A stretch of 64,000 bases of DNA, taken from contig JANBVO010000015.1 in NCBI GenBank assembly GCA_030052745.1, positions 186,001-250,000 on the forward strand, in the 5' to 3' direction. The translations under genes and the position numbers were made by a program. The stretch's first letter is position 1. Every line of letters starts with the position of its first letter. The stretch is from Pleurostoma richardsiae (Eukaryota; Ascomycota; Sordariomycetes; Calosphaeriales; Pleurostomataceae). The notes beneath the pieces are model-generated. The model saw nothing but the letters and a program-made list of their open reading frames with translations, was not told the DNA's origin and did no database searches. Below are positions 8,151-34,924 of the stretch, one piece after another.

Positions 8151-10089
8151 CTATGCAGCTATCGCGTCCCTTTCGTCGTCATTGCCACAGAAACGGAGAG
8201 CATTCTGAATGAATTCGTTCTTGTGCACGGCCAGCCGGATCTGCATGCTACAATTAGCAACCACGAGAAAATCCCAGTCGGCGAAGAAATGACTCGGCCT
8301 ACCTGCTTTCCCCAGACGTAGAGAACAAGGCCATAGATGCACCCAATGATGTGAATGGTTCCGATGACGAAGAAGACCTGAATCGGACCCGACTTGGCCA
8401 GCCAGTCATTGACAAAGAAGGCAATGGCAAAAGTCATGATAGCTTTGATGAAGGTCACAGCCGCGTATGCATCCTGGGCGTACTTCCTGTGACAGTCGAG
8501 TAGATATGTATTCGAAATCAGGGAGAGAATTGAGCCGGAGAAGGCCGCCACGCCAAAGAAAAACACCGGCACGAACCAATGCACCCGGGCGTGGATCGCC
8601 AGCCCGAAACCCCAGTACCCCGCGATTCCGGTAATCAAGGCTGGGATAGAAAGGATGTTGCGGAATTCGGGCTCGTACACGCCGCCGTTCTTTCGCGCCA
8701 TGAAAGTCACAAGCCAGTCAGCGACCGGGCCGGGGACGAAGTTGCCGATGACATTGGCGACGAAGGGAGACAGCACGGTGAGACCCACGGCACTTGTGGA
8801 GAAGTTATATGGTGGCGCGGTGAAGATCTGGGAGAGACTGACGGAGAGCGCGGCGGAAAAGGCAACGGAACAGCCGTACGAGTAGGCCGCCCAGGAAACT
8901 CCTGGTAGGAGGTATGTCGCGAACGGGGATAGGACACCTCGGAGGTAGCTCTCATTGCTGAAGCGACCGTTATAGACCTTTAGAGACTGGATGTACGTCT
9001 GCGGCTTCTCCACGGACGCATCTGGCTCACTGACATCAACGCGAGCCGTCACCTTCTCTTCGCCTGATGCGGCATCGGTGGTGGCGCTTTGCTGGTCGAG
9101 TTCGTCTGCCAGGACCTCGAGGATGTCCGTGTCGTACTTAGTCGCGCGATTGTATGTGGTCTCGGGGGCGAGAAAGAAGAGCGCAACGATGTACGCAGAC
9201 ATGAAGATCATGCTACGCAGGTGGTCAGCATCTCACTTAGTGGCGCCTGAACATCAGAACGGCTATTAGGGAACCTACGCGTAGCGGAACGCCCAGACGT
9301 AGTTCTGGCCCGCTACTATCTGGCTTGCAATGACTTGTCCGAGCGAGTTGCCGCCAGCGAGGGCAAAGTGCCAGATAGCGAGGTGGACGCCGCGTTGGTG
9401 TACGAAGAACAGGTCGCCGACACTCGAGCTGACGAGGTACTCGAGTGCGCTCTGTGCAGCTCCCCACAGTGCGCGGCCAGCATAGATATACTTGATATCG
9501 TGAGGCTTGGCAAGGAGAATACCGTAGCCGATGATGCCCAACAGACCAAGGCCAAGGAAGACTATATCTCTAGTCAGCCACTCCAGAGTAAATCAAGACA
9601 AGGGATAGGCTAGAGTAGCTGTCGGCTCACCAGGGCGCTTGCCGTATATGCGGGCGAGTGGCGTAGTCAGGATGCTGGCGATGCCCATGCACAGCATGAG
9701 GAAGCTGACGGTACGCGACATCTGCGTGACTGTGGTGCCGATCTGCTTTGATATGGCGGTGGCCGACGGGTTGAGAAAGTAGCAAGTACCCGACGCGAGC
9801 CCGGTGCCAAATGACAGCAGGATACTGTGGAAGAACTTCTTTCTCGGTGACCAGTCTATCATTTGAGTCAGCGCCACGGACGGAAGCAGGGGAAGCCCGG
9901 GTGCTGATGCTTACTCAAGGGATCGTTCACCGAATCGGATGGCTGCGGCACTAGAACGATGCCTTCATCGCGACCGGTGCCATGCTTGAGGTTCGCGGTG
10001 AGCGACCGCAGCTGCTCGGTGTCACGCTCAACGTGGACGGTTCCAGGGACCTTCTCGTTGGTCTTCGGCTCGAGCACCCAAAGGCCCAT
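8151..10089 (-). CDS. MFS transporter 1 of cluster (DHA/Hol1-like), five exons
   Basis: Spliced model on the minus strand: exons 10089-9915, 9855-9631, 9561-9279, 9212-8303 and 8240-8151, giving 560 residues. All junctions are GT-AG and the phases close. The N-terminus is a soluble tail (MGLWVLEPKTNEKVPG) leading to the DPLNWSPRKK motif before helix 1. Other marks are LARIYGKRPVFLG after helix 2, ALEYLVSSSVGDLFFVHQRGVHLAIWHFALAGGNSLGQVI, the APETTYNR motif after helix 6, a long central loop, and SLISNTYLLDCHRKYAQDAYAAVTF late. The family comprises proton-coupled plasma-membrane carriers of drugs, metabolites or polyamines. It is divergent from the FAD monooxygenase at 10653 and closely related to the second transporter at 20856-22734, whose exon structure is the same except for one intron. 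Substrate is unknown; export or import of the cluster's compound is likely. Confidence 0.88.
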
Positions 10090-10652
10090 CTTGCCAGTCA
10101 ATTAGCTACAACTAAGGCACGTGTTGCGGTGGCTGTTCGTGACGAGGTTCGAAGCAATGCTGTTGAGTTGGAAACTCTTTGGCTTTGAATCGCTCTCTGT
10201 TTCCCATCTTGTCATGTCGATCATCGCGGTCCTTTTGAAGTGCTATAGAGCTCCCCCAATGCAGCTTCCAAGCAATCACGCAAGAACCCTAGGCGATCGT
10301 CTAAGAGACCAGATCCCGGTCGCTAGCCACCAACGCCGCTACGTTTGAAGGAATGTCGGCGCTTGGCTCTCAAGCCATGGAGAACCACGTTCGGTATTGC
10401 CCATTTTAGGCATCGCCGAGATCCCCGCACGACATCGCCGGCTCCGGGGTGGAGATGAGCGGCACGCTGTTCGGCTGCTCCGGCCGGGACGGCAGACGCT
10501 GCGTCGTACGTTTTTCTGCGCGGAGGTGCGGCGCTAATCGCACATGCTACGGGGGTGCAGTCACATCAGCAGCAGTCCTACACCCTGATAAACCAAGCTG
10601 CGGGCGGGCCAGGGGACTCTCTGTGTGCAATTGCCACAAAGAGACAGCAGCA
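10090..10652. promoter_or_regulatory. Divergent promoter, MFS1 / FAD monooxygenase
   Basis: This 563-bp gap separates two outward-facing starts. It contains two copies of ATCGCCG at 10412-10418 (context TTTTAGGCATCGCCGAGATC) and 10434-10440 (context CATCGCCGGCTCCGG). The same core recurs in other promoters of this cluster, notably in the equivalent MFS2 / A-T-R divergent promoter, so it is a candidate site for the pathway regulator. This is an observation by eye without statistics. Confidence 0.4.
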
Positions 10653-12144
10653 ATGGGCTCAAACGACACCAGTGAGCATGCCAGCCTGCGGGTCGTAGTG
10701 GTCGGGGCGGGCATCGGAGGGTTGACGGCGGCAGTCGGCCTGCGCCTAGACGGGCACGAAGTCGTTGTGCTCGAGCAGGCAGCCGAGTTTGGCGAAGTGA
10801 GTAGCGGTCTTTGTCTGGCCGTCCAGATGAGGACGGCAGACGGTATGTCTATGCCTGCGACTGACTTGCAGCGACATCTAGGTAGGCGCCGGGATGAGAA
10901 TCCCCCCAAACTGCTTCAAGATCTTGCATCGCTGGGGCGTGGACCTCACCTACATGAAGAAGACGTACTCTAACGGGAACCGGTTCCTGCGATACGACGA
11001 CGGCCGGGTGCTCGCGCACATGCCGCATGGCATTCCGGAGTGGGACTTTGGCGGCTCGTACCTCATGGTGCACCGAGCGGACTACCACGCCGTTCTGCTG
11101 CAGAAGGCGCTCGACCTCGGCGCCGACGTGCGGAAAAATAGCAAGGTGGAGGAGTACGACTGGGAGAAGCCGGCCGTGCATCTGCAGAACGGAGAATGGA
11201 TCGAGGGCAACGTGTTGATCGCGGCAGATGGTGAGATAACCAGGGTTTTGTTATGGCGGAGGCATAGAGCTGACTATGACACGACGACATAAGGTGTGCA
11301 GAGCAAGGCTAGAGCGCTGATAGTTGGCCATGAACTCCCGCCCATTGATACCGGTGACTTCTCTTACCGGATCCTTATCCCTGGCAACGTTATCCTAGCA
11401 GATCCAGAGCTGCGCGACCTCGTCTCCGACCCGTGGGTCTCGTCCTGGTGTGGCCCTGACGCCCACGTCATCGGCTACCCTGTCCGCGGCGGCGAGGTCT
11501 ATAACGTCGTGTGCTGCTGCGCCGGACGCTCCATGCAGGATCGACCTTTGGCTGCTAACGAGACCAAGGCTGTCTTCGACAGCAATGCAGAGCTCGTCCG
11601 CCGGTTCAAGGACTGGGAGCCCAGAGTGAGAAAAATTGTCGACTATGCCAAGAACGTGAGCAAAGCTTCTGTCTTCTCATCTCCTTCTGCTAATAGAGGG
11701 AATAAATCACAGGGCTATCTCAAGTGGCGACTGTACGACCTCGACATCGTGGAGCGCTGGGTCCATCCAAGTGGAAGGGCGGCTCTCCTGGGAGACGCAT
11801 GCCATCCGATGCTACCGTACATGGCTTCCGGCGCGGCCATGGCATGTGAAGATGCCGCTGTGCTAAGGCAGGTTCTCAAGACTGCCACACGCCAGAGCGT
11901 CCCTGCGGCACTTCACCAGTATCAGAAGATTCGACAACCGCGCGCTTCAGTCGTGCAGAAGTCGGGTCGGGCACTGCAGCACGCGTACCACCTCGAGGAC
12001 GGTGCGGAACAAGCGCAAAGAGATGAGCTGATGACCAAGGATATGACGGAGAACCCGATCTACTGGGGACATCAGCCGCGGAGGGAGTGGCTCTTTGGAC
12101 ATGATGCAGAAGCCGACGCTAAGGTAACCTCGTTGGCAGCCTAA
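10653..12144 (+). CDS. FAD-dependent monooxygenase, salicylate hydroxylase-like
   Basis: Spliced model: exons 10653-10796, 10882-11230, 11294-11655 and 11713-12144, giving 428 residues with all phases closed. It is a group A flavoprotein monooxygenase (FAD_binding_3 family), which uses NAD(P)H and O2 to hydroxylate or oxidatively decarboxylate phenolic or enol substrates. The dinucleotide motif GAGIGG is at residues 18-23. VGAGMRIPPNCFKILHRWG follows the first junction, the DG motif VLIAADG lies near residue 160, and the GD motif ALLGDACHPMLPYMASGAAMACEDA is about residues 300-325. Length is normal for salicylate or 6-hydroxynicotinate hydroxylases. It is divergent from MFS1 and followed by an SDR, so it likely installs oxygen in the cluster pathway. 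The start ATG at 10653 lies in CAGCAATGG; the restored motifs at each splice make the model secure. The substrate cannot be read from the sequence. Confidence 0.9.
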
Positions 12145-13166: not shown

Positions 13167-14269
13167 ATGTCTGCAATCGAAATTGCCCCCGACAGCCGGG
13201 TCTTCTCGGATGTTCGTGACAAGGTGGTGATCCTTACAGGTGAGTGGCGGCCGTCTTAGAATCCGAAAGTCACCAGGCAAAACACAGGTTGGACGCAAAC
13301 TGAACGCATTTTTCAATGCAGGCGGTGCAACGGGAATAGGCGCGGCAACGTAAGGAGAGGAGAGACCATTTGAGCCACCAAAAGATTAGTGTTCGCTTAC
13401 AATCTCATTCAGTGTTCGGTTGCTAAACGAGCATGGAGCTATCGTCTCCTTTCTCGACGTCAACAAAGCCGTGGGCGAGGAGCTTGCGGCCGAGCTGGGC
13501 GAGTACGTCGCTGCTGCATGCTGCCTCTATAATACTATAACGTTCACTAACAGACGCGACGTTTAGCAATGTTCACTTTTTCCACGGCTCAGTCACGACA
13601 TGGGAGGACCAGCTAAAGGTCTTTGAGTGGACCGTTGAGAAATACGGCCGCGTAGACATCGTCCTGGCCAACGCGGGCATCGACGAGGTCGTCGAGGACG
13701 CGTTTGCGGACAAGTTTGACGAGAGCGGCAAGCTGCAGGCCCCGACACTCATCGTGCTGGATGTCACGCTACGGGGAGTCATTTTCACTATCAAGCTGGC
13801 ACTCAGCTACTTCAGGCGGTTGAAGATCCGCGGCTCTATCGTCGCTACGGGTTCGGCTGCCTCGTATCTCGACACACCGGGCATTCCGGTATACAACGCG
13901 GCCAAGCACGGCGTTCTTGGCCTAGTCCGGTCACTACGGGACAGCCTGAAGGAGGAGGGCCTAATCCGCGCCAACGTCGTCGCTCCGTCCTTCACGGCGA
14001 CGCCCTTCACAAAGAACCTCATCCATTTCTGGAGGAGGGAGGGGCTGCCCATCAATGAGCCCGAACAGATCGCGCGGGCCATCTTGTTCCTTGCCGTGAA
14101 CCCTGATTATCACGGCAAGTCACTGTACGTCGCGGCTGGCACTTACACCGAGCTTGAAGGGCCTATCTTGGCAACACAGGAGCAATGGCTTGGCAAGCAG
14201 AACACTGCATGGGTCAATCTGCGCAAGACCAAAAACCTGAAGATGGGCAAGCCCGAGGATAACGTATGA
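13167..14269 (+). CDS. Short-chain dehydrogenase/reductase 1
   Basis: Spliced model: exons 13167-13239, 13322-13349, 13413-13502 and 13567-14269, giving 297 residues. Splicing rebuilds the cofactor motif TGGGATGIG (about residues 24-32), which is interrupted by introns in the genomic frame. Further classical SDR marks are FLDVNKA after strand 2 (an Asp there suggests NAD(H)), LANAG, the catalytic YNAAK (Tyr-x3-Lys) and a conserved VVAPSFTATPF segment. The C-terminus is longer than usual (to about residue 297). The classical SDR family interconverts alcohols and ketones. It lies between the FAD monooxygenase and the enol-lactonase-like hydrolase, and plausibly oxidises an alcohol of the pathway intermediate. 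The 28-nt second exon is unusually small but keeps phase. The start is the only ATG preceding the Rossmann motif in frame. Confidence 0.87.
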
Positions 14270-14374
14270 GCAACACTTAGATAGCCTTTCATGTTTTGTA
14301 GCTGAATATAACAAATCATGAGCGACCATGAATTTCATACATCATTATTTCCCATGGGTCTTTGTTCGTAGCCG

Positions 14375-15229
14375 TTATGCCCGGCGCAGAGCCTCCTGCA
14401 CAAGTCTATGAAACCGTTCGGGCTGCTGGATGTTGACAATGTGTCCCGAATCGGGCACGATCACTACTTCAGAGCCAGCGGCGGCCGCCAGACGCCGCGA
14501 ATCCTCTGGTATGTCGGCGTCGTGCTCACCCGCCACAAAAGTAAAACGCTTCCCGTCACCCCTGGCCCCAATGTCGCGCACGACAGGCCATAGGTCCAGC
14601 CGTCTCAGTGCCGCCGCGCTAGCCTCAAACCCTTCGATGCTCTGGCCACCAACTATCTCCTCGACAGCAACCGCCCTCTCCGGGTTGGCTTTAATCCACG
14701 CCTCCGGAAACCAACGGCCAACACTCTGACGGCCCAGGGATTGACTCCCGTGCTCGCGGCCGTAGGCTATGCGAGAGTCGTAGGCGGCGTCGGCGCCAGC
14801 CGGTGGCTGTGCCTTGGTGCCAACTACCAAGACGTGGCCCAAGCGACTGGGATGCTTAGCGCCCGCAATGAGCACAACACCGGCGCCAATACTCAGTCCA
14901 ACGGCTAGGGAGGCCCTGCTGATTCCAAGGTGGTCTAAAAGGAGGATGAGGTCATCGGCAAGGTTGTCCAGTGAGTGACCCGCGGCATAGTTGAAATCTG
15001 CGTCGGCTGAGAGTGGCGACTTCCCATGGAAGCGGGAGTCGTAACGGATGATAGTGTGGGTTGGTCCGAAGTAAGAGGTAAGGCCATCCCAGAGGTGCGT
15101 CGTCGCTGCGAGAGAGTTGGACAAGACTATGGTTGGCCGTGAGCCGTCGAGTGGGCCGTCGACGGAGTAGTAGATACGGATGTCAGGCTTGGCCGACACG
15201 GTTAGGTAACCTTCGAGTTGTGGCGCCAT
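14375..15229 (-). CDS. Alpha/beta hydrolase, 3-oxoadipate enol-lactonase-like
   Basis: Single-exon gene of 284 residues, starting at ATG 15229 in AAGATGG. It has the alpha/beta hydrolase fold with sequence features of PcaD-type enol-lactonases. IVLSNSLAATTHLWD and IIRYDSRFHGKS form the N-terminal part, the nucleophile elbow is GLSIGAG (Ser about residue 113), GEHDAD carries the acid, and DSGHIVNIQQPERF carries the catalytic His. PcaD relatives hydrolyse beta-ketoadipate enol-lactone, but many fungal members open other lactones or esters. Its position in the cluster beside OYE and BVMO genes makes lactone opening attractive. No ring-cleaving dioxygenase is present, so a complete beta-ketoadipate route is not encoded here. 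It converges with SDR 1, with 105 bp between stops. Confidence 0.82.
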   Translation of the reverse strand: MAPQLEGYLTVSAKPDIRIYYSVDGPLDGSRPTIVLSNSLAATTHLWDGLTSYFGPTHTIIRYDSRFHGKSPLSADADFNYAAGHSLDNLADDLILLLDHLGISRASLAVGLSIGAGVVLIAGAKHPSRLGHVLVVGTKAQPPAGADAAYDSRIAYGREHGSQSLGRQSVGRWFPEAWIKANPERAVAVEEIVGGQSIEGFEASAAALRRLDLWPVVRDIGARGDGKRFTFVAGEHDADIPEDSRRLAAAAGSEVVIVPDSGHIVNIQQPERFHRLVQEALRRA

Positions 15230-15729: not shown

Positions 15730-16941
15730 TCACGCGGCCCCGACTGTTCCTGCTATCGTAGGAGATAGCTGTGTAAGCTCACCACCAACGCCTGCCGCCG
15801 CCGTATCTGATGCTTGTGAGCACCGACCCCCACTTCCTGCCGTTGCTACGGAATGCTGTCCATCCAACTCCCGAATCGGAGGATAATCTGTGTAGCCCTT
15901 TGGCTCAAGAACCTCGTAGAATAAATCCCGGTTGTACTTTGCGAGCGGGAGGTCATGTTGAATGCGGCGAGGCAGATCCGGATTCGAGATGAAGGCTCTG
16001 CCAAAGCCAACAAGAACATCTGAGCCCGAATACACGGTCTCGATGGCCTCCCTGGCGCTGGTCCCGTTGTATCCCCCGGCGACAATCACCGGGCTGGTCT
16101 TGCCCCATATATTCACCAGGAACTTGATAGACTCCCTCCCTTCTGAGTCGGTATTGCCCATGACACGGGCTTCGATGATGTGCAGATACGCCAACTTCAG
16201 CTCACGCAGCTGTGTCACGAGGTATGAAAATTGAGGCACCGGGTCATTCATCCTCATGCTGTGGTGCCGGCTCCAGGGACTGACTCGGTATCCCACGCGG
16301 TCTGCCCCGATGGCGCCTGCGATTGCCTTAGCCACCTCGATCCCGAAGCGCGCACGCTTCTCGACAGAGCCTCCCCAGGCGTCCGTCCTCCTGTTTGACA
16401 CGTCCTGCGTAAACTGGTCCACGAGGTAGCCGTTTGCGCCATGGACCTCGACGCCGTCAAAGCCAGCTTCGATGGCGTTGACCGATGCCGTACGGTAGTC
16501 GTCTATCAGTTGCAGGATCTCTGGCTCGGACAGCGGCCGCGGCACCGGTGCATTTGCGTCCAGCGGTACGTCGCTGGCGGAGACGACCTCGGCGCCGCGC
16601 TTGACGGCACCCGCCCTCGCAGCCCGGCCGCAGATCCACAGCTGGGCGAAGATGTACGAACCCCGCGCGTGCACCGCCGTTGTAATAGGCTTCCACGCCT
16701 CGATCTGTTCAACCGTGAAGAGGCCCGGTGTGTTGGGAAGAGCAGCAGAGCGTGGTGAGACCGAGGTTGCTTCGCTGATCAGCAGCGTGCCGGGCGCAGC
16801 GGCGCGTTGGGCGTAGTATTCGACCATCATGTCGGCCGGGGTGTGGTCATCAAGAGCCCGGCGCCGGGTCATGGGTGCCATGACAACGCGATGCCGCAGG
16901 TGGCACTGCCCGACCTGGATTGGGAAGAAGAGCGCAGACAT
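15730..16941 (-). CDS. Old Yellow Enzyme family ene-reductase (NADH:flavin oxidoreductase)
   Basis: Single-exon gene of 403 residues. It is an FMN-dependent TIM-barrel enzyme that reduces activated C=C bonds of enones and enals using NAD(P)H. Marks in order: VVMAPMTRRRA with the flavin-binding Thr, LLISEATSVSP, FAQLWICGRAARAG, VEVHGANGYLVDQFTQDVSNRRTDAWGGS (the His/Asn substrate pair and the barrel signature, about residues 170-200), GYRVSPWSRHHSMRMNDPVPQF, and VIVAGGYNGTSAREA with VGFGRAFISNPDLPRRI for FMN phosphate binding. The homologous part ends around GYTDYPPIREL; about 40 small and polar residues follow, a low-complexity tail that most relatives lack. The start ATG at 16941 precedes the conserved FFPIQVGQCHLRHRVVMAPMTR. 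It is divergent from the esterase at 17961. Confidence 0.9.
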   Translation of the reverse strand: MSALFFPIQVGQCHLRHRVVMAPMTRRRALDDHTPADMMVEYYAQRAAAPGTLLISEATSVSPRSAALPNTPGLFTVEQIEAWKPITTAVHARGSYIFAQLWICGRAARAGAVKRGAEVVSASDVPLDANAPVPRPLSEPEILQLIDDYRTASVNAIEAGFDGVEVHGANGYLVDQFTQDVSNRRTDAWGGSVEKRARFGIEVAKAIAGAIGADRVGYRVSPWSRHHSMRMNDPVPQFSYLVTQLRELKLAYLHIIEARVMGNTDSEGRESIKFLVNIWGKTSPVIVAGGYNGTSAREAIETVYSGSDVLVGFGRAFISNPDLPRRIQHDLPLAKYNRDLFYEVLEPKGYTDYPPIRELDGQHSVATAGSGGRCSQASDTAAAGVGGELTQLSPTIAGTVGAA

Positions 16942-17960
16942 TTTGCCTTTCTTCCTCGATATCTTGAGGTGAGAGTTAGGCTCCTGCTCCTCTGGATATT
17001 GCCCCCAAGTGTTAACTAGATATCGCTCGCGCCCTGATCAATGAGTGCAAAGGCGAATGCACCGTGCGACTGACTTGTCTGAATACAGGGTAGAGTGTCT
17101 TGCTAATCACATTGCCCACAAGGGTGCTTGCTGTTGCTGCTACCAATCTCGGCGGAGCCGAAAAGGGAAGTTCTTCGGGCTGTCATGAATAACCAGGGAC
17201 GCCGCTGCGGTCGTCAAGACAGAGCGAGCTGTTGCCGGGACCGCGCCGGGCTCCTTTAGCTCGGATTGCACCATCGCCGTCGCCGGGCACTGCACATCCG
17301 CCCTGGGGACTTCTTTGTGCAGGAACAATCTCTGCAATGTGAATGAGGGTATCTTCTCAGATCTACCGTATCGTCTATCCTGGACCAAGAGTTACAGTGG
17401 TGGAGAGTATGCGGAGTACCCTGCATACATGATGGAGAACGTCCAAAGCTCTAGCCCTCTCTCTTCGATACCTGCTTGTGGGTAGACACCGTTCCTGACT
17501 CATAAGCCGTGGTCTGAGAATAACTGTCACATACGACCATACCTAGCAGAATACTCGGGATCCCGTCCGCTCTCCCCTCGATAAGCTGCTAAGGGCCGGA
17601 TTAGTAGTTGGGTCGGTGACGACCAGCGAATACCCGGTGTTGTATGTTTTTCTTTTTTGGCGCCGTTCTCCTATTTCTTTTTTCTTTTTTGGGGGGGCAT
17701 CCGTGTGAAAGCATCTCCACTTAGAGATCGGTATTACTTGTTTAGGCAAGCGCCTCGAGTCTCACTTCTTATGTTTAGCTCCAGGGGACTTGGAATCGGT
17801 GGTTAACCCTCCTTAGCCAGGGGGTCAAGAGCAGAGACTTCACTCAGAGAAATCGATGTTTTGCCGGATTTCTTAGTGCTCTTCACCCTCTTGGCTTCGC
17901 ACAGAAACCCCGCAAGATTTGCGAACGTACGCAGCGGAACTCCTCCGGGAAGCAGCAGAC
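16942..17960. promoter_or_regulatory. Divergent promoter, OYE / HSL esterase
   Basis: About 1 kb between outward-facing starts, with no supported gene. ATCGCCG occurs at 17273-17279, directly followed by TCGCCGGG. A T-rich and G-rich tract (about 17646-17697) lies nearer the esterase. Confidence 0.35.
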
Positions 17961-19141
17961 ATGGCAGACTTCTCGTACCTGTCGGCTCCGTCGTCGGAAT
18001 GGACAGACTTCGAAAAGACCTGGATTCCCCCTTCGCCTCCCGCTACGGCTTCCATCAGGGAAATCCGGGATCTAGCGAATGCCGGAACAGCGAAGCTGTT
18101 TGCCAATGTTCTCGGCCGGCCTGGTTGGTGTGGTGTGGTCTGATATCACTTGCGTCGGAGGCTGACTCGGTGGCGCAGAAGCTGGTTTGGACATTGTCGA
18201 TTACAACATTCCCACCACTGATGGTGTAACCATACCAGTGCGGCTCTACACACCCCGGGGAAGGTCCGGCCGCCTTCCGCTATACATCTCTTTTCATGGC
18301 GGTGGCTACTACATGGGCAACCTGGAGACTGAGGACCCCCACTGCCGGCAAGTCGTGCTCAACACTGGAGCTGCGGTGCTGAACGTCAACTATCGCCACA
18401 CACCTGACTGGACATTCCCGGCGCCCGTGGACGACGCCTGGGCAGCGTTTCAATGGGCTCGTGACTCGGCGGAGCAACACAACCTTGACCCCCAGCGGAT
18501 CTACGTCGGGGGAGTAAGCGCAGGCGGCACTCTGGCTATCACCGTAGCCCTTCGAGCACTTAAGGAGGTAAAGGCGCCGTGGATCCCTGCTCCTGTGTCA
18601 CCAAGAGAACTAATATCTCTCAAATAGGGCATCACTACCGTGAAGGGCCTCTTCCTGGCAACTCCAGCAACTGTCCATCCAGACTACTTCCCGTTCGATC
18701 TGGTGAAGGATGGCCGCAGCTCCTTCCAGGAGAACGCTAATGCCCCGTTCATCAATGCAGCCAAGCTGCGCAACTTTATGAACCTATACCAGCCTGAGCC
18801 GGCAGACCCCGACTGCTCCCCGCTGTTGCTGTCCACAGAGTCATTCTCTGGCCTGTGCCCGACTTGGATTCATGTGGCCGGACTGGACCCGCTGCGGGAC
18901 GAGGGCCTCCTATTCGAGAAGAGACTGAGGGACGCTGGGTTGGTCTAACATCACCTACCCTGTTAAATGCTACAGAGGCTAACTCCGTCATTCCAGAGTC
19001 AAGACAAGTTTGTACACGTATCCTGGTATACCTCATGCGTTCATGTCGCTGCCGAAGCTTCCATCGGCTGCTGTGTATCGTAAGAGACTGTACCGGGACC
19101 TAAAAACTGCCACTTCTAGCTCGGAAAGCCGTTATACTTGA
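17961..19141 (+). CDS. HSL-family alpha/beta hydrolase (esterase/lactonase)
   Basis: Spliced model: exons 17961-18123, 18179-18567, 18628-18938 and 18997-19141, giving 335 residues with closed phases. It belongs to the hormone-sensitive-lipase (alpha/beta hydrolase fold-3) group, which hydrolyses esters and lactones. The oxyanion motif is SFHGGGYYMG (about residues 91-100), the nucleophile elbow is GGVSAGG (Ser about residue 168), the acid is in AGLDPLRDEG, and the catalytic His in PGIPHAFMSLP appears only after the last splice. The elbow has Val where GDSAGG is usual. Bacterial epsilon-lactone hydrolases of cyclic terpenoid catabolism are members of this family, which matters because a BVMO and an OYE are in the same cluster. 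Substrate is inferred, fold is firm. The ATG at 17961 is the first in frame; an upstream extension would need TTG. Confidence 0.87.
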
Positions 19142-19242
19142 CAAAATGGCCCAGATGTTTGCAACCATATAAAAGTGGCTTTCATATTAGGAATAAATTT
19201 AATCCCCTAAGCTGGAATAATAGCGAGATCCTACGAGTTGTC

Positions 19243-23467: not shown

Positions 23468-26400
23468 ATGGTTCGACATCGTGAGGACGCGGGCCGTCGC
23501 CTGCTACCCCATGTCATTGACGAACTAGCCCGAGAAGAGCCCGAGCGCATCCTCTACGAATTTCCAACAGACAACGACGTCACGCTGCCATACACTAAAG
23601 TCACAGCTCGCCAGTATGCAAACGCGATCAATCGCGCTGCATGGGCGCTTGAAGGCGCTTTGGGAAGGGGTTCGGGCTTCCCGACGGTCGGGTATACGGG
23701 GCCGCAGGATCTACGGTACTTCATATTCGTGATTGCGGCAGTCAAGGCAGGATACAAGATGCTGTACACGTCACTTCGAAACAGCGTCGAGGGAGATCTT
23801 GCGGTGGTCACGGCAGCGGACTGCAAGGCCTGGCTGGTTCCCTACCGAGGCTCCAACATCCAACGTCTTCTGGATCGTGGCGTGTCACTGAAAACAGTCG
23901 CCGTGCCAGACTTGAAAGTTCTTCTAGACTCCAAGTCATCTCCGCCGTACAAATATGAAAAGACCTGGGAGTCGGGTCGACGAGACCCCGTATGGGTGTT
24001 ACACACCAGTGGGAGCACCGGTAACCCAAAACCAGTCTTCCGGTTTCTAGACAGCGTGGCTTCTATTGGAGCCAACACGCTTCTTCCACAAATTAACGGA
24101 CGGCCGCTCCTGCTTCATGACTTCTTCGATACCAGAGTCTATTTGACCTTCCCCTTCTTTCATGTACGTGTCAGACTGGTGATAACATGGAGCTACTGAA
24201 CTGACATACGACAACTCAGGCAGCAGGGCTGGCCAATGGCCTCCTCTGGCCCCTCTTCTTCGGCACTACGGTGATATTTGGACCAGAGAAACCCGTCGCC
24301 CTTGACGTGATGAGGACCGTGATCACGTCGGCGAAGCCGGACGCTGTTTTCACCGCGCCCTCCTTGGTCGAGGAGATATCAAATAACGAAGATTTCCTCG
24401 ACTTGTTAGACACTGTCAACGCTATCGCCTATGGCGGTGGCCCCGTCAGTAAGGAGGCTGGAAGTCGGATCTGGAAGCACACAAAGCTGCGCCTGTCTAT
24501 CGGGACGACGGAGACCGGGTGGCTCCCCTGCCTCGAGACAGACCCCGAAGACTGGAACTACATCCACCTCCACCCTAACGCTGGATTCGAGCTCCAGCCC
24601 CGCGGGATTGGATTGTATGAGCTTGTTGCGGTCCGGCGCCCGGAGCTGCGAGATTGGCAGCCCATATTCTCGACCTTCCCGGATCTACAGGAGTACCATT
24701 TCAAGGATCTTTTCTCACGACACCCGACAAAGCCCGACCTCTACACGTATGAGGGCCGTGCAGACAACGTGATCGTTCTTTCTAATGGCGAGAAGGTGCA
24801 GCCTCACGCCATGGAGCTGACGATCGGAGCGAATCCGCTCGTCGATGCAGTCGTTGTTGCCGGGCAGGGCAGATTCCAGACGGCAGCCATCGTTCAGCTC
24901 GCAGACAAGTCGCAATTCCAGGGCCCGGCTGTATGGGACAAGATCTCAGATCACCTCTGGGCATCCATCGAGGATGCAAACAAGTCCGCATCGGCACATG
25001 CCAAATTACACCGGGATTTCATCGTCATTGCATCCCCGGATAAACCGTTCCTCAAAACGAGCAAGGGCACAGTGCGGCGAGGGCCGACTATCGAGCTGTA
25101 CCAGGAAGAGCTTGACAGAGTCTACTCCGAAGCCGATTCCATCGTGAATGGAACAAGTGACCATTTCGTTGACTTATCGAGTAGGGAGGCATTAAAACAG
25201 TCTCTTCGGAAGATCCTACTCGCTGCTGGGCTGGAATCTGTCGGCGACGACGATGACTTCTTCGCTATTGCAGGCATGGACTCCTTGCAGGTGCTAACAC
25301 TGACGAGACTACTAGCACGGAACTTTGCTGGTCAGGATGGTGATCCTGAGGCTATCAAGCCAGCGCTCATCTATAACAACTGTACACTAAACCTGCTGGC
25401 AAAAGCGTTGATACGGTTGATCAGGCAGCATGTGACTGACACTGAGGAGGCGAGTGCTCAAAGTACAGATGCCGCTCGGAGTCTCTTCGAGAAATATGCT
25501 CGGACGTTGCCAGCGCCAGCAAAAGTTACTCAACCCGCGCTCGCCAGACACAAAGCACAAGGATCGGTAATAATATTGACGGGCAGTACGGGTTCGCTAG
25601 GCTCGTATCTCCTCAAACAGCTCCTCCAGCAGCTCGGAGTACGTGAGCTGTGGTGTCTGAACCGATCGGCAGACGCGCACATTCGGCAGGCCCAGCTCAG
25701 TTTGGCCCGCGGACAAACGCTGGACCTCAGGTCGGGTCGCGTTCATTTCCGCCGTACAGATCTGTCTCAGGATCGCCTGGGGCTAGATACGGCGGATTAC
25801 GAGTATCTGACTGAGAACGTCACGCATATAATACGTAGGCGGCACCATCAATTCGGCGTTTTGAATGAATAAAAACATACGCTGACGGCAAGACAGACAC
25901 GCAATGGCAGGTAGACTTCAACCTTTCCCTCGCGTCTTTCGAGCCGCACATCAAGGGTGTGCGGAACCTGATCGGTCTCGCCGTCGATGCGGCAAACCAC
26001 GGCAAGAAAGCTAAGATAGTTTTCACTTCCTCGGTGAGCGTCGCGAACAAGGTCGGACCGGACGAACCTCAGATTTCCGAGGCCCCGATCACGAACTTCG
26101 CCGTGGCCGGGTCCGGATATGGGGAGTCCAAACTCGTGGCAGAGAATCTGCTGTTGGAGGCGACGGCGCGGGGTGGCGTCGACGTCGTAGTCTGCCGTGT
26201 GGGACAGATTGCAGGGCCTGTCAGAGAGGAGCACAGGGGAGGGTTGTGGAATCGCAAGGAGTGGCTTCCTAGCGTAAGTTGTCTGCCGCGGTCGGCGGCT
26301 CCCGTGGTGTTGTACTCCCTCTCACTGATGTTGCAGATTATTGATGCCTCAGCATACCTGGGCCTGGTCCCCAGATCCCTAGGCCGGAATGAGTGGGTGG

Positions 26401-26831
26401 ACTGGATACCAGTTGACCAGCTCTCTTCCGTAATTGTCGAGCTTGCCGGAATTGAAACCATCGACGAGGAGAAGCACAGTGCTCAGATCTTTCACTGTGT
26501 GAACCCAAACAGAGTCCAATGGCAGGACGCACTGCTGCCGACGGTCAGTTCGCGGCTGCAGCAGAAAGCATCGGGGGGCAAACCCGTCAACACAGTTGAA
26601 CTGGAAGAGTGGATAGGTGCGCTGATGATTGCCGCGGGGGAGGCAAGCAAGACTGATGAAGCCAGAATCTCGGCTTTCAAGCTTGTATCGTTCCTGTCTA
26701 GTCTTGTCCAGGGTTATGCACGGCCGGAGTTCGAAACAATCGAGACGACAAAGCACAGCACGGCGCTGAGGGAGCTGCAAGCGGTTGGTGATGAGTGGAC
26801 GAATACCTGGCTCGATCAATGGGGCTACTGA
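23468..26831 (+). CDS. NRPS-like enzyme, adenylation-thiolation-reductase (A-T-R)
   Basis: Spliced model: exons 23468-24163, 24220-25834, 25897-26273 and 26337-26831, giving 1060 residues. It activates a carboxylic acid as the AMP ester, loads it on a phosphopantetheine arm and releases it reductively as aldehyde or alcohol. The A domain (about 1-530) has core A3 HTSGSTGNPKP (residues 179-189), SIGTTETGWLP and YEGRADNVIVLSNGEKV. The T domain has DDDDFFAIAGMDSLQV with the attachment Ser about residue 587. The R domain begins VIILTGSTGSLGSYLLKQLL (about 682), with HIIHTQWQVDFNLSLASFEPHIKG rebuilt by splicing, FTSSVS, and the catalytic YGESK (about 845). There is no condensation domain. The order is that of fungal alpha-aminoadipate-reductase-like and carboxylic-acid-reductase-like enzymes. 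The last intron (63 bp) is in frame and open, so retention would add 21 residues; splicing gives the better family match. It is divergent from MFS 2 and likely the cluster's signature enzyme. Confidence 0.9.
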
Positions 26832-27246: not shown

Positions 27247-30200
27247 ATGAGCCTCCTCGACATCAACCTCGTCCACGTAGACCCGTCCACCTTCACCAAG
27301 AAGCGGAAGCGCACAACCACCGCGTGTGTGCACTGTCATGAGCGGAAGGTCAAGTGTGATGGCAGTACGTGCTCGGGGAAAGCCCCTCAGTCCTCCGGAC
27401 ATGCCGTTTTCTGACATGGAGATTGTTATCAGAGGATTCGCCGAGCGGGGGGCCGTGCAAGGTAATGAGAGCCCGCCACCCGTGCCTGTCGTCGGATACA
27501 CAAACGCTAACAGACGCTCTCAGAACTGCCTTGCTGCGGGGTTGACGTGCAGGTAGTCGGCCTTGAAGGGAGTACGAGGCTGTTGCTGAGATCGTTGCTA
27601 ATGATGGGGGTGTGCAGGACACATCTTGATGGCCGAGTCAAGGGGAATGGTGCTGCCCAGAATAAGGCCAATCCTACGTGGACAATGTGCGTCACTCTAT
27701 CAAGCACTTCGCAAGCGGCATCATCCTGACAAGTCACACCAGACCTGCAGCAGAGCCCTCGGCACCGGAGAGAACAACCTTGACGCCGGACTCGCTCACT
27801 TCTAACGGGTCTCTTATCATACAGGAGTTACCGGTCTCTGCGAGTGCAGTCGGCTATCCCTCCTCATCGACGTCCTTGACAGAAAGCCCAGGAACGCATA
27901 TGGGCAACAGCCACGATGGCAACGATAGTGAACCCAGCTCGTCTGGTCTGTCGCGGACGATGATGCCGCTCACAATTCAAAGCCCCGTTCCGCGCACACA
28001 AGCACCGCTGGACCGGTTCGAGGCATACATCGAGGACACGCTGGGGCTCTATGCGCCGTCCTTCAAACAGCATAGTGACAAAGCGATCACCACCAACCAG
28101 AGTCCCCATGCTGGACCAGACTTGGAGGGCCTGACTGGGGATTGTCGCCTTGAGGTCGAGATGGCATCACGGCCAACGGTAGAATTGGAAAAGCACATGG
28201 CAAGCCTCGATGCCGCCGACATGGAGCTGCTGAATGCAAAAGGTGCCTTCGACCTCCCACCTAGGAATCTTCAGGAGGAGCTGATCAATGCCTACTTTGC
28301 CGAGGTTCATCCCACCGCACCGGTCATTAACAAGACTGAGTTTTTGTCCGAGTTCCACAGCAATCGTATGCCTAGCAGGCTTCTCCTCTTTGCCATACTC
28401 GCCTCCGGGTCCCGGGCATGCCGGAATCCCGCACTACTAGATGATAAAGGCACAGTTCATTCTAGCGCGCAGCGCTTTTACAAAGCAACTAAGGTGAGTC
28501 TTACTCAACGGATTATCTCAACCGTGTCGTTTTCGAAGAGAGATGGTGCAGTCGCGATATAGAACCATACACGGGATTACTGATAAGATACCGACGTCAA
28601 CGCTATAGGCCTTGTTGGACACAGGCTATGAAATTAGCAAGCTCAAGCGTATTCAGGCCCTCCTGCTCATCACATGGTGGTGGGACAAGAAAGATGACGG
28701 CGGGAGAAACATGAGGTCGTGTGTAGTCGACGCTCTCAACACGGCGCAGAGCATAGGCATGCATAGATGGTGCGTATCGAGATGCATCACTTCGGACACC
28801 AAATCTCTTCATGGAATACCGGGGTTGACACAACTGGCTCAGGGACCACTACCCACAGAACGATCCTGCCACCTTGGGCGTGTGGAAACGTACTTGGTGG
28901 AGCTGCTTTGTATGTTGCCGTTCCCTCTTTCTCCTCGAGCGACTTGATACGACTAGACGTGAGCTAACAACTAGAAAGAACCGTGACGTAGGCGTCGGTG
29001 TTGCCCATGGCCTCCCAAGCACGTTGTCTCTCTCAGAGTTCGACGTGCCTCCGCTATCGCCGGAAGACTTCGACGAGGAGCCTGGCATTCAGAGGGGTCT
29101 GCGGCGATACCCTCATTCGGAAATCGAGATCCGGTTCTTCATGGAGCAGACCCGGGTGATGGAGGCTCTGCACCACATTCACCGCGGCTTCTTCGTCCGC
29201 CAGCGACTGCACGACCACATGACTGGATCCATAGCTCAGCGGGAGGCTTCCTGTAAACGCACAACAGTCACTCCAGGAGCTAGGTCCGACAAAGAATGGT
29301 ACCCGGATTCCTACCAGGATGAAGGACTTCTGCTTTGTAGGGATTGGCTAGAGCAGCTACCCGATATTGTCCAGTACAATGTCGATGATATCCGAGGACA
29401 TAAGTTCTGGCCGGCATTCCTCCACATACTGTATTAGTACGTCGTTACTTATGTGCCCCTGTCATGTTTCTGGTTCACGGAGAACACTAATGGCATTCTG
29501 TAGCACGAACATCATGCTTCGCTTCCGGGAGAAATCCGTCTCGAGACCTAAGACGGGCCGTGCGGCTGCGGAGCGTGAGTACTCTCAAGCTCGCGGCATT
29601 GCTGCTGCAACGATGATCAGCAAGATTATCCGGAATGTGAGGGCGCATGGCCAGGTCCTAAGATGCACAGGACAGTTGTAAGCAGTCGCTCTCAGCATTT
29701 CCACGTCACGCATCGAGTGAGTGATCTTACTGACTCTACTCTTCCGGGAAAGGACCAATTCTATCTTCAACTGCCTCATCTTCTTCCTCGTTGAAGGCCA
29801 GTCCCTTAACGCGGACGTGCGGCGAGATGCACAGCGCAAGTACAGCTTGTGCCTCAACGTGCTCTACGACTTCAGCCAGCTCTGGGTTTCAGCTTCACTC
29901 ATCCACCGCCTCTTCGAGTCACTCCAGGCTCACATGCACGTGTCTTTTACCAGCAAGAGGTCGGCATCGTTGCTCGCTGGCCAGTTGCACTCCCCCCTAC
30001 CCGGTCTTACTGTGTCGAGCGCCATCACAAATTCGTATATGAAGCAGTAAGCCACCCTCCTTGTCCGACTCTATAAGTGCAACTGGTATTTCAGCGCTTG
30101 TGATAACACATGATGCGGTAGACTGCTTGCGACGGACTTCTACTACGATGACAGCAGCGCCGGCGTGCCGAGCTTTGGACACTCAGCGAGTAGCCTAGGG

Positions 30201-30437
30201 AGGTCTACACCACAGACAAACTACATGCTAGATGACATCCCCTCCGACTTCGACCAGGCTCTAGGGTCCGGTCTACCCGACACGCTCAATATTGACCAGT
30301 GGTATGTGCTGAACCACGTTCATGTGCTCTACTCTAGCAGAGGGCTAACTCGCAATCAAAGGGTCAACTTTTTCGGTTTAGGTGATACTGGCCTGACGCC
30401 AGCTGCGCCGGAGACATTCCAGTGGGATGACGCTTAA
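27247..30437 (+). CDS. Zn(II)2Cys6 fungal transcription factor, probable cluster regulator
   Basis: The start is ATG 27247. The binuclear zinc cluster is split over three small exons, 27247-27364, 27433-27461 and 27524-27552. Splicing yields ACVHCHERKVKCDGKDSP...GGPCKNCLAAGLTC, a correct Cys-x2-Cys-x6-Cys-x10-Cys-x2-Cys-x6-Cys array preceded by basic KKRKR. The join after 27552 is uncertain: either straight to 27716 or through a micro-exon near 27618-27636. Later exons are about 27716-28493, 28609-28769, 28843-28909, 28979-29436, 29504-29677, 29753-30046, 30122-30301 and 30362-30437. They encode the fungal-specific regulatory domain, including NAYFAEVHPTAPVINKTEFLSEF, TWWWD..ALNTAQSIGMHRW, and GVWKRTWWSCF followed by a polar stretch. 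Such proteins bind CGG-containing sites in the nucleus and often control the cluster in which they lie. The domain call is strong; exact exon borders in the middle are moderate. Confidence 0.82.
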
Positions 30438-31426: not shown

Positions 31427-33461
31427 ATGGCCACAGTAAACGGGGCGGAGGGTCGCAATGGCACCTCGACCATAAATGGCACCAAAGATACCGCCAATGG
31501 CATCAAAACCGTAGCGGAATCCCCGATGTCAGCGCCGAAGAGCGCGCTCCTACCCCTCCTTGAAAGCGACATAATCGCTCCTAACTACGTCCATGAGCCC
31601 AAGCCGATCCGGGTGATCTACATCGGCGCGGGCATCTCGGGCATCGCCTTCAGCTACAAGGCGAACCAGGTTGAGAAGCTGACATACACCATCTACGAGA
31701 AGAACTACGACGTTGGCGGCACGTGGCTTGAGTCGCGCTACCCAGGTGTCTCCTGCGATGTGCCGGCCCACGGGTATACCTACACCTGGCGGGCAAACCC
31801 TGACTGGAGTCGGTTCTACGCCGGTGGCGAGGAGATCTGGAGGTGGTACAAGAAGCTCGCCGAGGAGTACGGCGTGTATGAGCATACCAGGTTCAAGCAC
31901 AAGGTCGTCAAGGCGGAGTGGGACGAGGCCACGCAGCTATGGAAGGTCGAGGTCGAGAACCTGGAGACCGGCGAGAGGTTTTGGGACGAGGCCGAGGTGC
32001 TTATCAACGGAGGCGGGCCGTTAAAGTGAGTCACCTCCTTGAGTATACGCCATCAACGAGTTAAGGAGAAGAGGCTGACCTTTAATGCAGCAATTGGAAA
32101 TGGCCTGACATTGAAGGACTGCATGACTTCGAAGGAGATCTTCTACACACAGCAAAGTGGGATGATAGCGTCAAGCTGGAGGGCAAGAGAGTTGCCGTCA
32201 TAGGATCTGGCGCGTCAGGAATACAGATTGTACCTGCGATCCAGCCCAGTATGTAGTGCCAAAACGATAAGTCGTCCCAAGGAGCTGACAGCTTACCTTC
32301 ATAGTTGTGAGCAAGCTCGTCTCGTTCAACCGGTCACCGACATGGGTGGCGCCCGAATTTGCCTGGCAGCTCGCCGCAGATGGCCGAGACACCATCTACA
32401 CGGATGAGCAGCGGGCAGAGTTCCGCAACAACCCCGCAAAACTGACACAGTATCGGAGGGACATTGAGCACGGCATGAACGCCAGGTTCCCCTCCTTCTA
32501 CAAGCACTCGGAGGCCCAGAAGATTGGAAGGCAGTTCGTCGCGGAGGGCATGCGGAAGAGGCTCAAGAACGACCCGGTGCTTTCAGAGAAGCTAGTCCCC
32601 AAGTTTGAGCTGGGATGCAGGCGGTAGGTCATCACAATTGCATCGTGACACCGTTATCCTACCCCCCCATCTAAGTTGCTAGATTTGGACTAACAGAGCC
32701 AACTTATGACAGAGTGACACCGGGCCAGGGCTACCTTGAGGCCCTCACTTCGCCGAATGCCGAAGTTGTTACTGTGGGTATTCAGAAAGTCGTCCCCAGC
32801 GGCATCATCGACAACGACGGGCAGCTGCACGAGGTTGACATTGTCATCACCGCGACTGGGTACGACACCTCTTTCGTCCCGCGATTCCCCATCATTGGAC
32901 TCAAGGGCGTCAACCTGCAGGACAAGTGGAGGACTGAAGGGGCGGCAGCGTACCTCTCGGTAGCGGTGCCTGGCTTCCCTAACTACTTCCTCACCATCGG
33001 ACCCAATGCACCTATCAGCAATGGTTCGCTTGTAGCTGCGATGGAACGGCAACTCGACTACGCCCTGGCGTTTGTGCGCAAGATCCAGACCGAGGACGTA
33101 ACCTCAGCGGTGGTGTCAGATGAGGCCGCCGCCGAGTTCGACGAGTGGAAAAACGAGATTATGAAGGGCATGACCTGGTCAGGCGCGTGCACGAGCTGGT
33201 AAGTGACCCCGGAACAAATGTCTCACCCCGCCACTGGCAGGCACTGACTTGTGAGGTTCCAGGTACAAGAACGGGACTGCGGATGGCAAGGTCACGGGGC
33301 CGTGGCCGGGCTCTGTTAACCACTTCCTGGAGATCATGAAACAGCCGCTCTACGAGGACTTCAAGTACAAGTACAAGACACGGAACCGCTTCAGGTTCTT
33401 CGGCGATGGAAGGGCGCCCGTTGAGGCAAAAGGTGAGCCTCTGGGGTGGTATATGCAGTGA
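31427..33461 (+). CDS. Baeyer-Villiger monooxygenase (FAD, NADPH)
   Basis: Spliced model: exons 31427-32025, 32091-32248, 32305-32623, 32713-33198 and 33263-33461, giving 586 residues. The FAD motif GAGISG is at residues 67-72. [34 protein letters not shown] follows, then the BVMO fingerprint [13 protein letters not shown] (F-x-G-x3-H-x3-W-D, about 213-225), the NADPH motif [20 protein letters not shown], and [11 protein letters not shown] before the flavin domain ends. This is type I BVMO architecture, inserting oxygen beside a ketone to give an ester or lactone. The ATG at 31427 sits in a perfect context (ACCATGG), while an upstream extension needs TTG. The first 55 residues are a polar, low-complexity leader. 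It is tail to tail with SDR 3. Substrate is unknown; the companion OYE and hydrolases suggest a cyclic ketone. Confidence 0.92.
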
Positions 33462-33963
33462 TGGCGATATACCGTCAGTACTGGTCGTGAGGGTAGAATT
33501 CGGGGTTGGAGTGACTTCTCGTCGTGACGTTACCATTGAAATAGACGATACGGACAGTCACTCCGGAGATCCTCTCAGGTAGTATTATTGCGTTAGGTGT
33601 AGATGAGTAATTCCTAGATGCATGCTATCTCCTTGCATCTAGATACTCGACCGGAACCCACATGGAGTGCCGGCTGGTCACTCGTCGCCCGCTTCCAGCA
33701 GTCACCGTCCGAAAGTCGGCAGCAATTAACAGAACAAACGTCTCATACAACCTCAAGGCCATATCTTGGATAGTCCAGCCGTTAGACCTAATATGGCCTC
33801 CTCATAATCCCCGACCCGGTTGTTCTGTAACAGACGCAATGAGCAGACTTCTTACGTGGGTTAATTGCTGCATCATAGGCCCCATTAGTAATACTATAAC
33901 TCCCCGATACTGCCATAGCACGATCAATAACAGCTCAGGGCCCAGAAGGAAAGCTCCAATTGA
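33462..33963. other. Intergenic between convergent BVMO and SDR 3
   Basis: 502 bp between two facing 3' ends, A/T-richer, with no open frame of note. It presumably holds the two terminators and 3' untranslated regions. No repeat is seen. Confidence 0.45.
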
Positions 33964-34924
33964 TTAAAGAAGTGATGATGCTCCGTCAATGGCAGTAGTG
34001 AATAAAGCGCCCTCTGCAACCCGCGTAGCGTTTGCCTTCAGCTCGTCAACATCCCAATTACAGGAAGAAAATTTCCCCTTCAAGAATTCAGCTTCAGGAC
34101 TGGAGACCCAAACAATATAATGAGCGGGAAGCTCGACTAACACTGTGAGCTTGCGGGACAGGGACGTAGGTAGAAGTCTCACGAGATACCTTTATCAGTA
34201 GGGAGGTCCAGCATGCCAGATTTGGTGAACATGTTGGTCTCGACCGTCCCTGGATGAATAGTCGTGAAACGAACATCAGGATGCTCGGCAGCTAGTACCT
34301 CGATGAACTTGATCAAGCCAAGTTTGGAGGCAACGTAGCTCGATACATTGGTTACCATGGAAGCCGGCAAATTCACACCTGCTGTGGAAGTAGCGACAAC
34401 GACTGCATTTTCCCCTTTTGTAGGCAAGAATGCTTGGGCCGTGATGAAAGATCCTTTGATATTGACCTGTTTGACTGTTCGCAGCTATGTTGTGGGCTGT
34501 AGTCTGGAAATCTTACCTCAAAGGCTTTCCACCACTCGTTGACATCAGACTCCATGCTTGGGCCTGGGTTGGACATATAGCCAGCATTCATAACCAAGAC
34601 ATCCCAAGTGCCAATATCAGAGGCAGCCTTGCTCAATACAGCTACATCAGTGACGTCGGCTATGTGAGTTGACACTGTGGCCTTGTACTTGGACTCGATG
34701 GCATCTTTGGTGTCGAGTAGGGGTTGCTCTTTTCGGCCCAAGATCGCAATGGAAGAGGCGCCGGCGATGGCAAAGGCTTCGACGACACCGCGGCCGATGC
34801 CATATCCACCGCCTGTCACCACGATTTTCTTGCTTCTGGCGGACAGCTCTGGACGGGAAGGATCGATAGCGGCATAAGTGTCATTATGCCATTCCTTAGT
34901 CGGCGCGGGGAGAGGAGGCTTCAT
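33964..34924 (-). CDS. Short-chain dehydrogenase/reductase 3
   Basis: Spliced model: exons 34924-34517, 34466-34190 and 34142-33964, giving 287 residues. Classical SDR marks: KKIVVTGGGYGIGRGVVEAFA (about residues 33-53), LGRKEQ after strand 2, IADVTD, MNAG, ATSTAGV with the catalytic Ser, YVASK as Tyr-x3-Lys, and IHPGTVETNMF. The end (LPAHYIVWVSSPEAEFLKGKF) matches the usual SDR close. ATG 34924 lies in ACCATGA; the frame extends upstream only from TTG. It is the last gene of the cluster by content and faces the BVMO. It could supply the ketone for the BVMO by oxidising an alcohol, as in bacterial cyclic alcohol pathways. That role is inferred. The last intron is only 47 bp. Confidence 0.86.

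Follow-up and report, generated by a model that had tools for sequence, protein, structure and literature searches.

The stretch analysed here (the window) is 64,000 nucleotides of the genome of the ascomycete Pleurostoma richardsiae and spans C44:186001-250000, where C-numbers designate the contigs of that genome (39.43 Mb, 136 contigs). Twelve intact genes lie between positions 8151 and 34924 of the window. Numbered g1 to g12 from left to right, they encode one regulator, two transporters of the major facilitator superfamily (MFS) and nine enzymes in hand-curated models. The enzymes comprise a flavin adenine dinucleotide (FAD)-dependent monooxygenase (g2), three short-chain dehydrogenases/reductases (SDRs; g3, g7 and g12), an enol-lactonase-like hydrolase (g4), an old yellow enzyme (OYE; g5), an esterase of the hormone-sensitive lipase (HSL) family (g6), an enzyme with adenylation, thiolation and reductase domains (A-T-R; g9) and a Baeyer-Villiger monooxygenase (BVMO; g11). 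The original prediction had placed twelve genes of these families here, together with three divergent promoters and a resident Zn2Cys6 regulator. The curated models agree with it: Pfam matches above cut-off back the family of every cluster gene (12/12), the divergent promoters are those of g1/g2, g5/g6 and g8/g9, and the regulator is g10.

The models combine stop-to-stop frames, the output of a simple gene finder (trained on the window itself) and manual frame reading. The gene finder alone fused g4 with g5 and g7 with g8 and missed g12 and the exons of the zinc cluster, and these faults were corrected by hand. All twelve predicted genes are complete from ATG to stop. Their 41 introns are 50-160 bases long and are all of the GT...AG type, and the gaps between cluster neighbours measure 101-1022 bases. 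Catalytic or binding motifs, read here in their commonly accepted functional meaning, are present in 10 of the 10 proteins checked, which are all but the two MFS carriers.

g9 contains PF00501, PF23562, PF00550 and PF07993 above cut-off as well as the A-T-R motifs, and a Pfam search at E 0.001 gave no condensation-domain hit in it. The best solved match of its R domain is 8aep (2.6e-63), the R domain of the carboxylic acid reductase (CAR) of Neurospora crassa (PMC10168641). The domain order described earlier for an A-T-R protein resembling a nonribosomal peptide synthetase is retained, and the 8aep match refines the assignment to a fungal CAR. By its domain make-up g9 is predicted to be a CAR-like enzyme of the fungal kind; with the bacterial model NF041592, whose cut-off is 1300, it reaches 75.4. 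While g9 shares the A-T-R order with the N. crassa enzyme, a type III fungal CAR, it differs in having eleven neighbours with which it may form a cluster.

The monooxygenase g2 had been described as salicylate-hydroxylase-type, a label that we replace. Its best solved relative is 8gsm, "4-hydroxybenzoate decarboxylase" (1e-82, 37% identity), and 8x38, "Decarboxylative Vanillate 1-Hydroxylase" (4e-81, 40% identity), and 8r2t, "FAD-binding domain-containing protein" (2e-77, 40% identity), are close behind, whereas the salicylate monooxygenase 4bjy is a weaker match (2e-48, 32% identity). g2 is thus nearer to the decarboxylating 4-hydroxybenzoate/vanillate 1-hydroxylases. With TIGR03219 (salicylate 1-monooxygenase) it reaches 133.7 bits against a cut-off of 446.35, and with its top NCBIfam model, 3-hydroxybenzoate 6-monooxygenase, 229.8 against a cut-off of 459; both are bacterial models and weak tests for a fungal protein. 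On the 4bjy and TIGR03219 scores, salicylate hydroxylase proper was rejected as the best label. The reaction type of g2 is likely the decarboxylating hydroxylation of the 4-hydroxybenzoate 1-hydroxylase group, as judged from these relatives.

TvMNX1, CpMNX1 and VibMO1 have been placed together in a clade of such enzymes, and this clade includes catabolic MNX1 proteins (PMC12915361). AtyG is 38% identical to VibMO1 (PMC12356543). g2 resembles the MNX1/VibMO1/AtyG group in that its best solved relatives are decarboxylating hydroxylases, 37-40% identical; the likeness is drawn through PDB chains, and g2 differs in forming a branch of its own with a paralogue on contig C1. In an eight-row tree the two pair with a support of 94/99, and their branch lies next to the solved enzymes, not among them; 94 falls below the 95 mark, and one of the five inner branches passes both support marks.

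The OYE family is marked by an HxxN motif with a following tyrosine, which the sequence HGANGYL at position 167 of g5 fits; the protein matches PF00724 with 302.8 bits. Chanoclavine-I aldehyde reductase is the closest solved relative (2e-110; the next is 9e-84). Since the structure of that reductase served as a template for class II fungal OYEs (PMC8954901), the match probably marks the OYE class and not the substrate. An ergot-type cluster, considered from this match, was rejected, as Pfam gave no DMATS-type prenyltransferase hit among the twelve cluster and five flanking models. An OYE of Aspergillus oryzae is reported to be strongly raised on toxic wheat-straw condensate (PMC9394295).

g11 matches PF00743 with 50.8 bits (cut-off 22) and carries GAGISG at 67, the fingerprint at 213 and GSGASG at 238. 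Two Rossmann motifs flanking FxGxxxHxxxW[PD] are the hallmark of type I BVMOs, and by these motifs g11 is predicted to be such an enzyme and to catalyze oxygen insertion into a ketone or aldehyde. OTEMO and steroid, cyclohexanone and phenylacetone monooxygenases are matched about equally, so that nothing is learned on the substrate of g11. A contig scan for a bacterial relative confirmed 0 of 73 pattern matches, an uninformative result, as its patterns came from three fungal paralogues.

Among the hydrolases, g4 has the 3-oxoadipate enol-lactonase 2xua as its closest solved relative (2e-22), and it falls below the cut-off of TIGR02427, the model for this enzyme (138.6 vs 255.85 bits). g6 matches many HSL-family hydrolases, including the vibralactone cyclase 6kd0 (9e-37). 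The SDRs match KR in Pfam, as is usual for SDRs. The two carriers g1 and g8 are 55% identical, and g1 is closer to an MFS protein encoded at C43:261.6-263.6 kb (67% identity, 62-77% by piece); g1 and g8 were therefore rejected as recent tandem duplicates. No other cluster homologue was found at 1e-8 in the ~40 kb around the C43 gene. In g10 the zinc cluster reads CX2CX6CX10CX2CX6C after splicing, with two introns interrupting the motif and a third directly after it. At least 150 Zn2Cys6 matches were scored in the same genome.

In the twelve cluster and five flanking proteins Pfam hit no family of ketosynthases, prenyltransferases, terpene cyclases, P450s or ring-cleavage enzymes. Because no skeleton-building domain was hit, a ready-made substrate is expected, and together with the two carriers this favours a small one.

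Shared promoter elements had also been proposed, and this proposal holds in part. The eight core intergenic stretches were examined for thirty-nine patterns (thirteen spacings, each in three orientations). CGG-N5-CCG occurs at 8 sites in their 5.7 kb and at 1 site in 12.3 kb of control stretches; dinucleotide shuffles give an expectation of 1.57, and a fraction of 0.0005 of them reaches the observed 8. The element is present in five of the eight stretches (g1/g2, g5/g6 and those upstream of g3, g4 and g11) and was not found upstream of g7 and g10 or in g8/g9. Its sites include those at window positions 10472, 12684, 12893, 17150 and 31268. The top-scoring pattern is CGG-N3-CGG, with 13 hits for 3.07 expected (family-wise p 0.0005). 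As the controls hold 12 hits of this pattern, part of the promoter-pattern excess may be region-wide. CGG-N5-CCG is enriched overall, but no tested element is common to all three divergent promoters. The GC content at third codon positions (GC3) is 0.53 in g12 and 0.63-0.75 in the other eleven cluster genes, and g12 may be a bystander on account of this deviation.

A single regulator, three divergent promoters and short gaps are points for one cluster, and it is plausible that the twelve genes form one pathway. The earlier statement that no described cluster has this exact set was not contradicted by the open-licence papers that the searches listed, none of whose titles or abstract openings names a cluster of the same content. 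Each enzyme kind is well known, and their combination was not met in the literature searched.

Searches of the genome itself were run with nine proteins (g1-g7, g9 and g11; g8, g10 and g12 stood outside them). No second copy of the cluster was seen with these 9 of the 12 proteins. The paralogue lists obtained are lower bounds, drawn up at differing E-value limits. Pairs of paralogues from different families lie within 15 kb of each other in 12 cases and within 40 kb in 22 cases, for 2.8 and 7.4 expected under uniform placement, and 0 of 5000 such simulations reached either count. For g2, g4 and g7 the top-scoring paralogues all fall on C1 within ~36 kb; under the uniform null, three of the nine proteins would do so in 2 of 10,000 cases. 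At 873.8-882.6 kb of C1 a g2-like gene, an MFS-like gene, a Fungal_trans regulator and a g4-like hydrolase gene follow in succession; the MFS-like gene was called by eye and gave no tblastn hit to g1/g8 at 1e-6. Rather than duplicating the cluster, the C1 group seems to be an incomplete, diverged relative of one of its parts. Genes for a 2-oxoadipate dioxygenase (HGLS), a class II aldolase, an Asp/Glu racemase and DAO-family proteins lie near those of the segment C1:861266-882590, which is possibly another catabolic cluster.

Table 1. Genes and divergent promoters of the cluster (window positions), groups of paralogues elsewhere in the genome (contig numbers) and a flanking gene pair.
Feature	Location	Strand	Details
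g1, MFS transporter	8151..10089	-	560 aa, 5 exons; Pfam
g1/g2 divergent promoter	10090..10652		563 bp; one CGG-N5-CCG at 10472
g2, FAD monooxygenase	10653..12144	+	408 aa; Pfam, motifs, solved relatives
g3, SDR1	13167..14269	+	297 aa; TGGATGIG and YNAAK; Pfam
g4, alpha/beta hydrolase, 3-oxoadipate enol-lactonase-like	14375..15229	-	284 aa; below TIGR02427 cut-off
g5, OYE	15730..16941	-	403 aa; Pfam, motif, solved relatives
g5/g6 divergent promoter	16942..17960		1019 bp; one CGG-N5-CCG at 17150
g6, HSL-family esterase/lactonase	17961..19141	+	335 aa; HGGG, GVSAG, PHAF; Pfam
g7, SDR2	19243..20212	-	279 aa; Pfam, motifs
g8, MFS transporter	20705..22734	-	559 aa; Pfam; short final exon unsure
g8/g9 divergent promoter	22735..23467		733 bp; without CGG-N5-CCG
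g9, A-T-R CAR-like	23468..26831	+	1043 aa; AMP-binding, PP-binding, NAD_binding_4
g10, Zn2Cys6 and Fungal_trans regulator	27247..30437	+	801 aa, 12 exons; Pfam, motif
g11, type I BVMO	31427..33461	+	586 aa; Pfam, fingerprint motif
g12, SDR3, doubtful cluster member	33964..34924	-	285 aa, 2 introns; GC3 0.53
BVMO and g3-like SDR (SDR1) paralogues	C95		
BVMO and HSL paralogues	C68		5.1 kb apart
BVMO and g2-like paralogues	C49		4.6 kb apart
Two BVMO-like, MFS-like and SDR2-like genes	C45:475970-497484		~21 kb
g2-like, g7-like (SDR2) and OYE genes	C56:186279-202339		~16 kb; a second group uniting three cluster families
MFS and g3-like SDR paralogues	C76 and C2		
g2-like and g4-like paralogues	C1		
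PcRGLX-type lyase gene and adjoining MFS gene, just left of the cluster	window 3865-6624 and 1406-3154		Pfam

From the observed gene models, domains, motifs and nearest solved relatives we infer a co-regulated route, with its substrate, order of steps, catabolic direction and final hand-off. We tentatively prefer the view, to which we give somewhat less than an even chance, that through this cluster the fungus takes up a small aromatic acid or aryl ketone of plant or lignin type and converts it in a peripheral pathway. The MFS carriers g1 and g8 would move the substrate or product, and g10 would turn on the cluster genes. g2 would convert a para-hydroxybenzoate-type acid to the hydroquinone with loss of CO2, the carboxyl group being replaced by a hydroxyl. 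The conversions catalyzed by the CAR g9 and the SDRs g3 and g7 would be the interconversion of acid, aldehyde, alcohol and ketone, and g5 would reduce a conjugated C=C bond. g11 might then insert oxygen next to a carbonyl, and g6 (or g4) might hydrolyse the resulting ester, formate or lactone; in this way the BVMO and the esterase could either open a ring or strip off a side chain (acyl or formyl). Phenols at the hydroquinone level would be passed to ring-cleavage genes elsewhere in the genome. In favour of this view are the intact set with its one regulator and divergent promoters, the decarboxylating relatives of g2, the CAR match of g9, the Pfam scans free of skeleton-building hits and the recurrence of cluster families close together on other contigs.

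As to such genes, the ten stretches of the genome found to match PF00775, a ring-cleavage dioxygenase family, all lie outside the window; within it, other ring-cleavage families were covered through Pfam in 17 proteins. In one of the ten, at C45:188 kb, both Dioxygenase_N and Dioxygenase_C were recognized, and next to it lies an open reading frame (ORF) of the iron-containing alcohol dehydrogenase family, which includes maleylacetate reductases. No NCBIfam model was reached at cut-off by either of the two C45 ORFs, and maleylacetate reductase was not among the models listed. With the dioxygenase beside the iron-containing alcohol dehydrogenase, a hydroxyquinol-type lower pathway would be possible in the genome, unlinked to the cluster. 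A shikimate-dehydrogenase-like ORF, recognized by eye, also lies near the intradiol dioxygenase at C45 ~188 kb.

Genes of comparable kinds are known from Aspergillus terreus. There BVMO, SDR and aryl-CoA ligase genes, syntenic with an aromatic catabolic cluster, rise on salicylate, and a salicylate-monooxygenase-like gene in the same vicinity is also up (PMC7842363). These genes by the 3-hydroxyanthranilate cluster are like those of P. richardsiae in bringing together a BVMO, an SDR, an AMP-forming enzyme and a salicylate-monooxygenase-like gene. They differ in having the aryl-CoA ligase instead of an A-T-R enzyme and in the presence of the ring-cleaving 3HAO, and neither an OYE nor an HSL hydrolase is named in the available portion of that report (PMC7842363). 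Fungal detoxification genes are often clustered, for a purpose that a review describes as unclear (PMC8120277).

Several points weigh against a catabolic cluster for aromatic acids or aryl ketones. The promoter of the A-T-R gene g9 is without CGG-N5-CCG. Carboxylic acid reduction runs counter to simple catabolism, and it also occurs in biosynthesis (PMC10257657). VibMO1 and AtyG are biosynthetic relatives of MNX1 (PMC12915361, PMC12356543), and the branch of g2 and its C1 paralogue stands apart from the solved enzymes in the eight-row tree, so that g2 need not share their substrate. On C1 a distance of 27 kb, occupied by unrelated models, separates the g7-like (SDR2-like) gene from the g2-like gene. 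The significance of the paralogue pairs is overstated because the uniform null ignores the general clustering of such genes; in addition, exon rows were merged by eye, and the 12 pairs lack independence, the C45 group alone supplying 4 of them.

Biosynthesis is the rival to be weighed first, and we regard it as possible but doubtful. Here the A-T-R enzyme would prime an aromatic acid, which g2, the OYE, the SDRs, the BVMO and the hydrolases would tailor, and the MFS carriers would export the small secreted product (a phenolic, an epoxyquinoid or a lactone), much as in the asperpentyn or vibralactone pathways. The place of VibMO1 and AtyG among the MNX1-type enzymes suits such a role. The vibralactone pathway uses a CAR and the cyclase VibC (PMC10257657), and 6kd0 is among the relatives of g6, but ten solved esterases or hydrolases outscore 6kd0. 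The nearest solved relative of g5 acts in ergot alkaloid biosynthesis, yet Pfam matched none of the twelve cluster genes to a prenyltransferase, P450, ketosynthase, cupin or PAL family. The asperpentyn (aty) cluster is alike in using a decarboxylating FAD monooxygenase and an SDR on a benzoate, and differs in its use of PAL, a UbiA prenyltransferase, a P450 and a cupin epoxidase (PMC12356543), none of which was hit here. The vibralactone pathway is alike in its CAR, aldehyde reductase and monooxygenase acting on a 4-hydroxybenzoate skeleton; its genes are considered unlikely to be clustered, it uses prenyltransferases, and its VibO is phenol-hydroxylase-like (PMC10257657), unlike g2 and g11. 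Identity with the asperpentyn or vibralactone cluster was rejected, as the defining enzymes were not hit by Pfam in the scanned proteins.

A cyclic-ketone route is unlikely in our judgement. The OYE and an SDR would reduce a quinone-derived or terpenoid cyclohexenone, the BVMO would expand the ring to a lactone, g6 or g4 would open it, and the CAR and SDRs would process the hydroxy acid, so that a ring-cleaving dioxygenase would be unneeded; the lack of PF00775 matches in the window agrees with this. Carvone and limonene degradation in Rhodococcus follows a logic of SDR, OYE, BVMO and HSL-type lactone hydrolase that the cluster enzymes of these kinds fit, and we know of no CAR or decarboxylating hydroxylase in that system. 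Two BVMOs of Grosmannia clavigera have been implicated in limonene detoxification (PMC8120277). Both systems are likened to the cluster by enzyme kinds, not by sequences. The neighbouring BVMO and HSL paralogues on C68 would also suit such a route, but it is hard to see what g2 and the CAR would do in a terpenoid one, and the matches of g11 do not favour cyclic, steroid or aryl ketone enzymes over one another.

We consider it similarly improbable that two or more unrelated modules merely adjoin, for example g1-g6 and g7-g11 with g12 as a bystander. The three stretches without CGG-N5-CCG (upstream of g7 and g10, and g8/g9) and the GC3 of g12 would be explained in this way, but the short gaps, the one resident regulator and the recurrence of family pairs elsewhere argue for a connection. 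Least probable, and in our view a long shot, is the breakdown of an aromatic acid with no ring-cleaving dioxygenase involved, all under one regulator: g2 would yield the hydroquinone, the SDRs and OYE a cyclohexenone or cyclohexanone, and g11 the expanded ring, after which g6 or g4 would open the lactone and the CAR and SDRs would reductively process the acid.

If the twelve genes form one pathway, carboxylic acid reduction, ene reduction and Baeyer-Villiger oxidation would be joined in a single fungal cluster, the known peripheral aromatic (or small-phenolic) pathways would gain another, and the enzymes would be a set of candidate biocatalysts. If they are a mere neighbourhood, the locus would be another undescribed fungal stretch of redox genes.

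None of the five scanned flanking models suggests an extension of the pathway. A PcRGLX-type exo-rhamnogalacturonan lyase gene and an adjoining MFS gene (window 3865-6624 and 1406-3154) are probably an unrelated pectin-use pair; the lyase-like protein was translated without its proposed intron. Other flanking models scanned with Pfam were a serine carboxypeptidase and a triose-phosphate-type transporter. At window 36315-37589 a Ser/Thr-rich, secreted-looking protein is encoded, with a sub-threshold cerato-platanin hit (19.9 bits vs a cut-off of 24.4). At window ~50000-58000 gene models are sparse and score low; by eye, one of them is NACHT-like.

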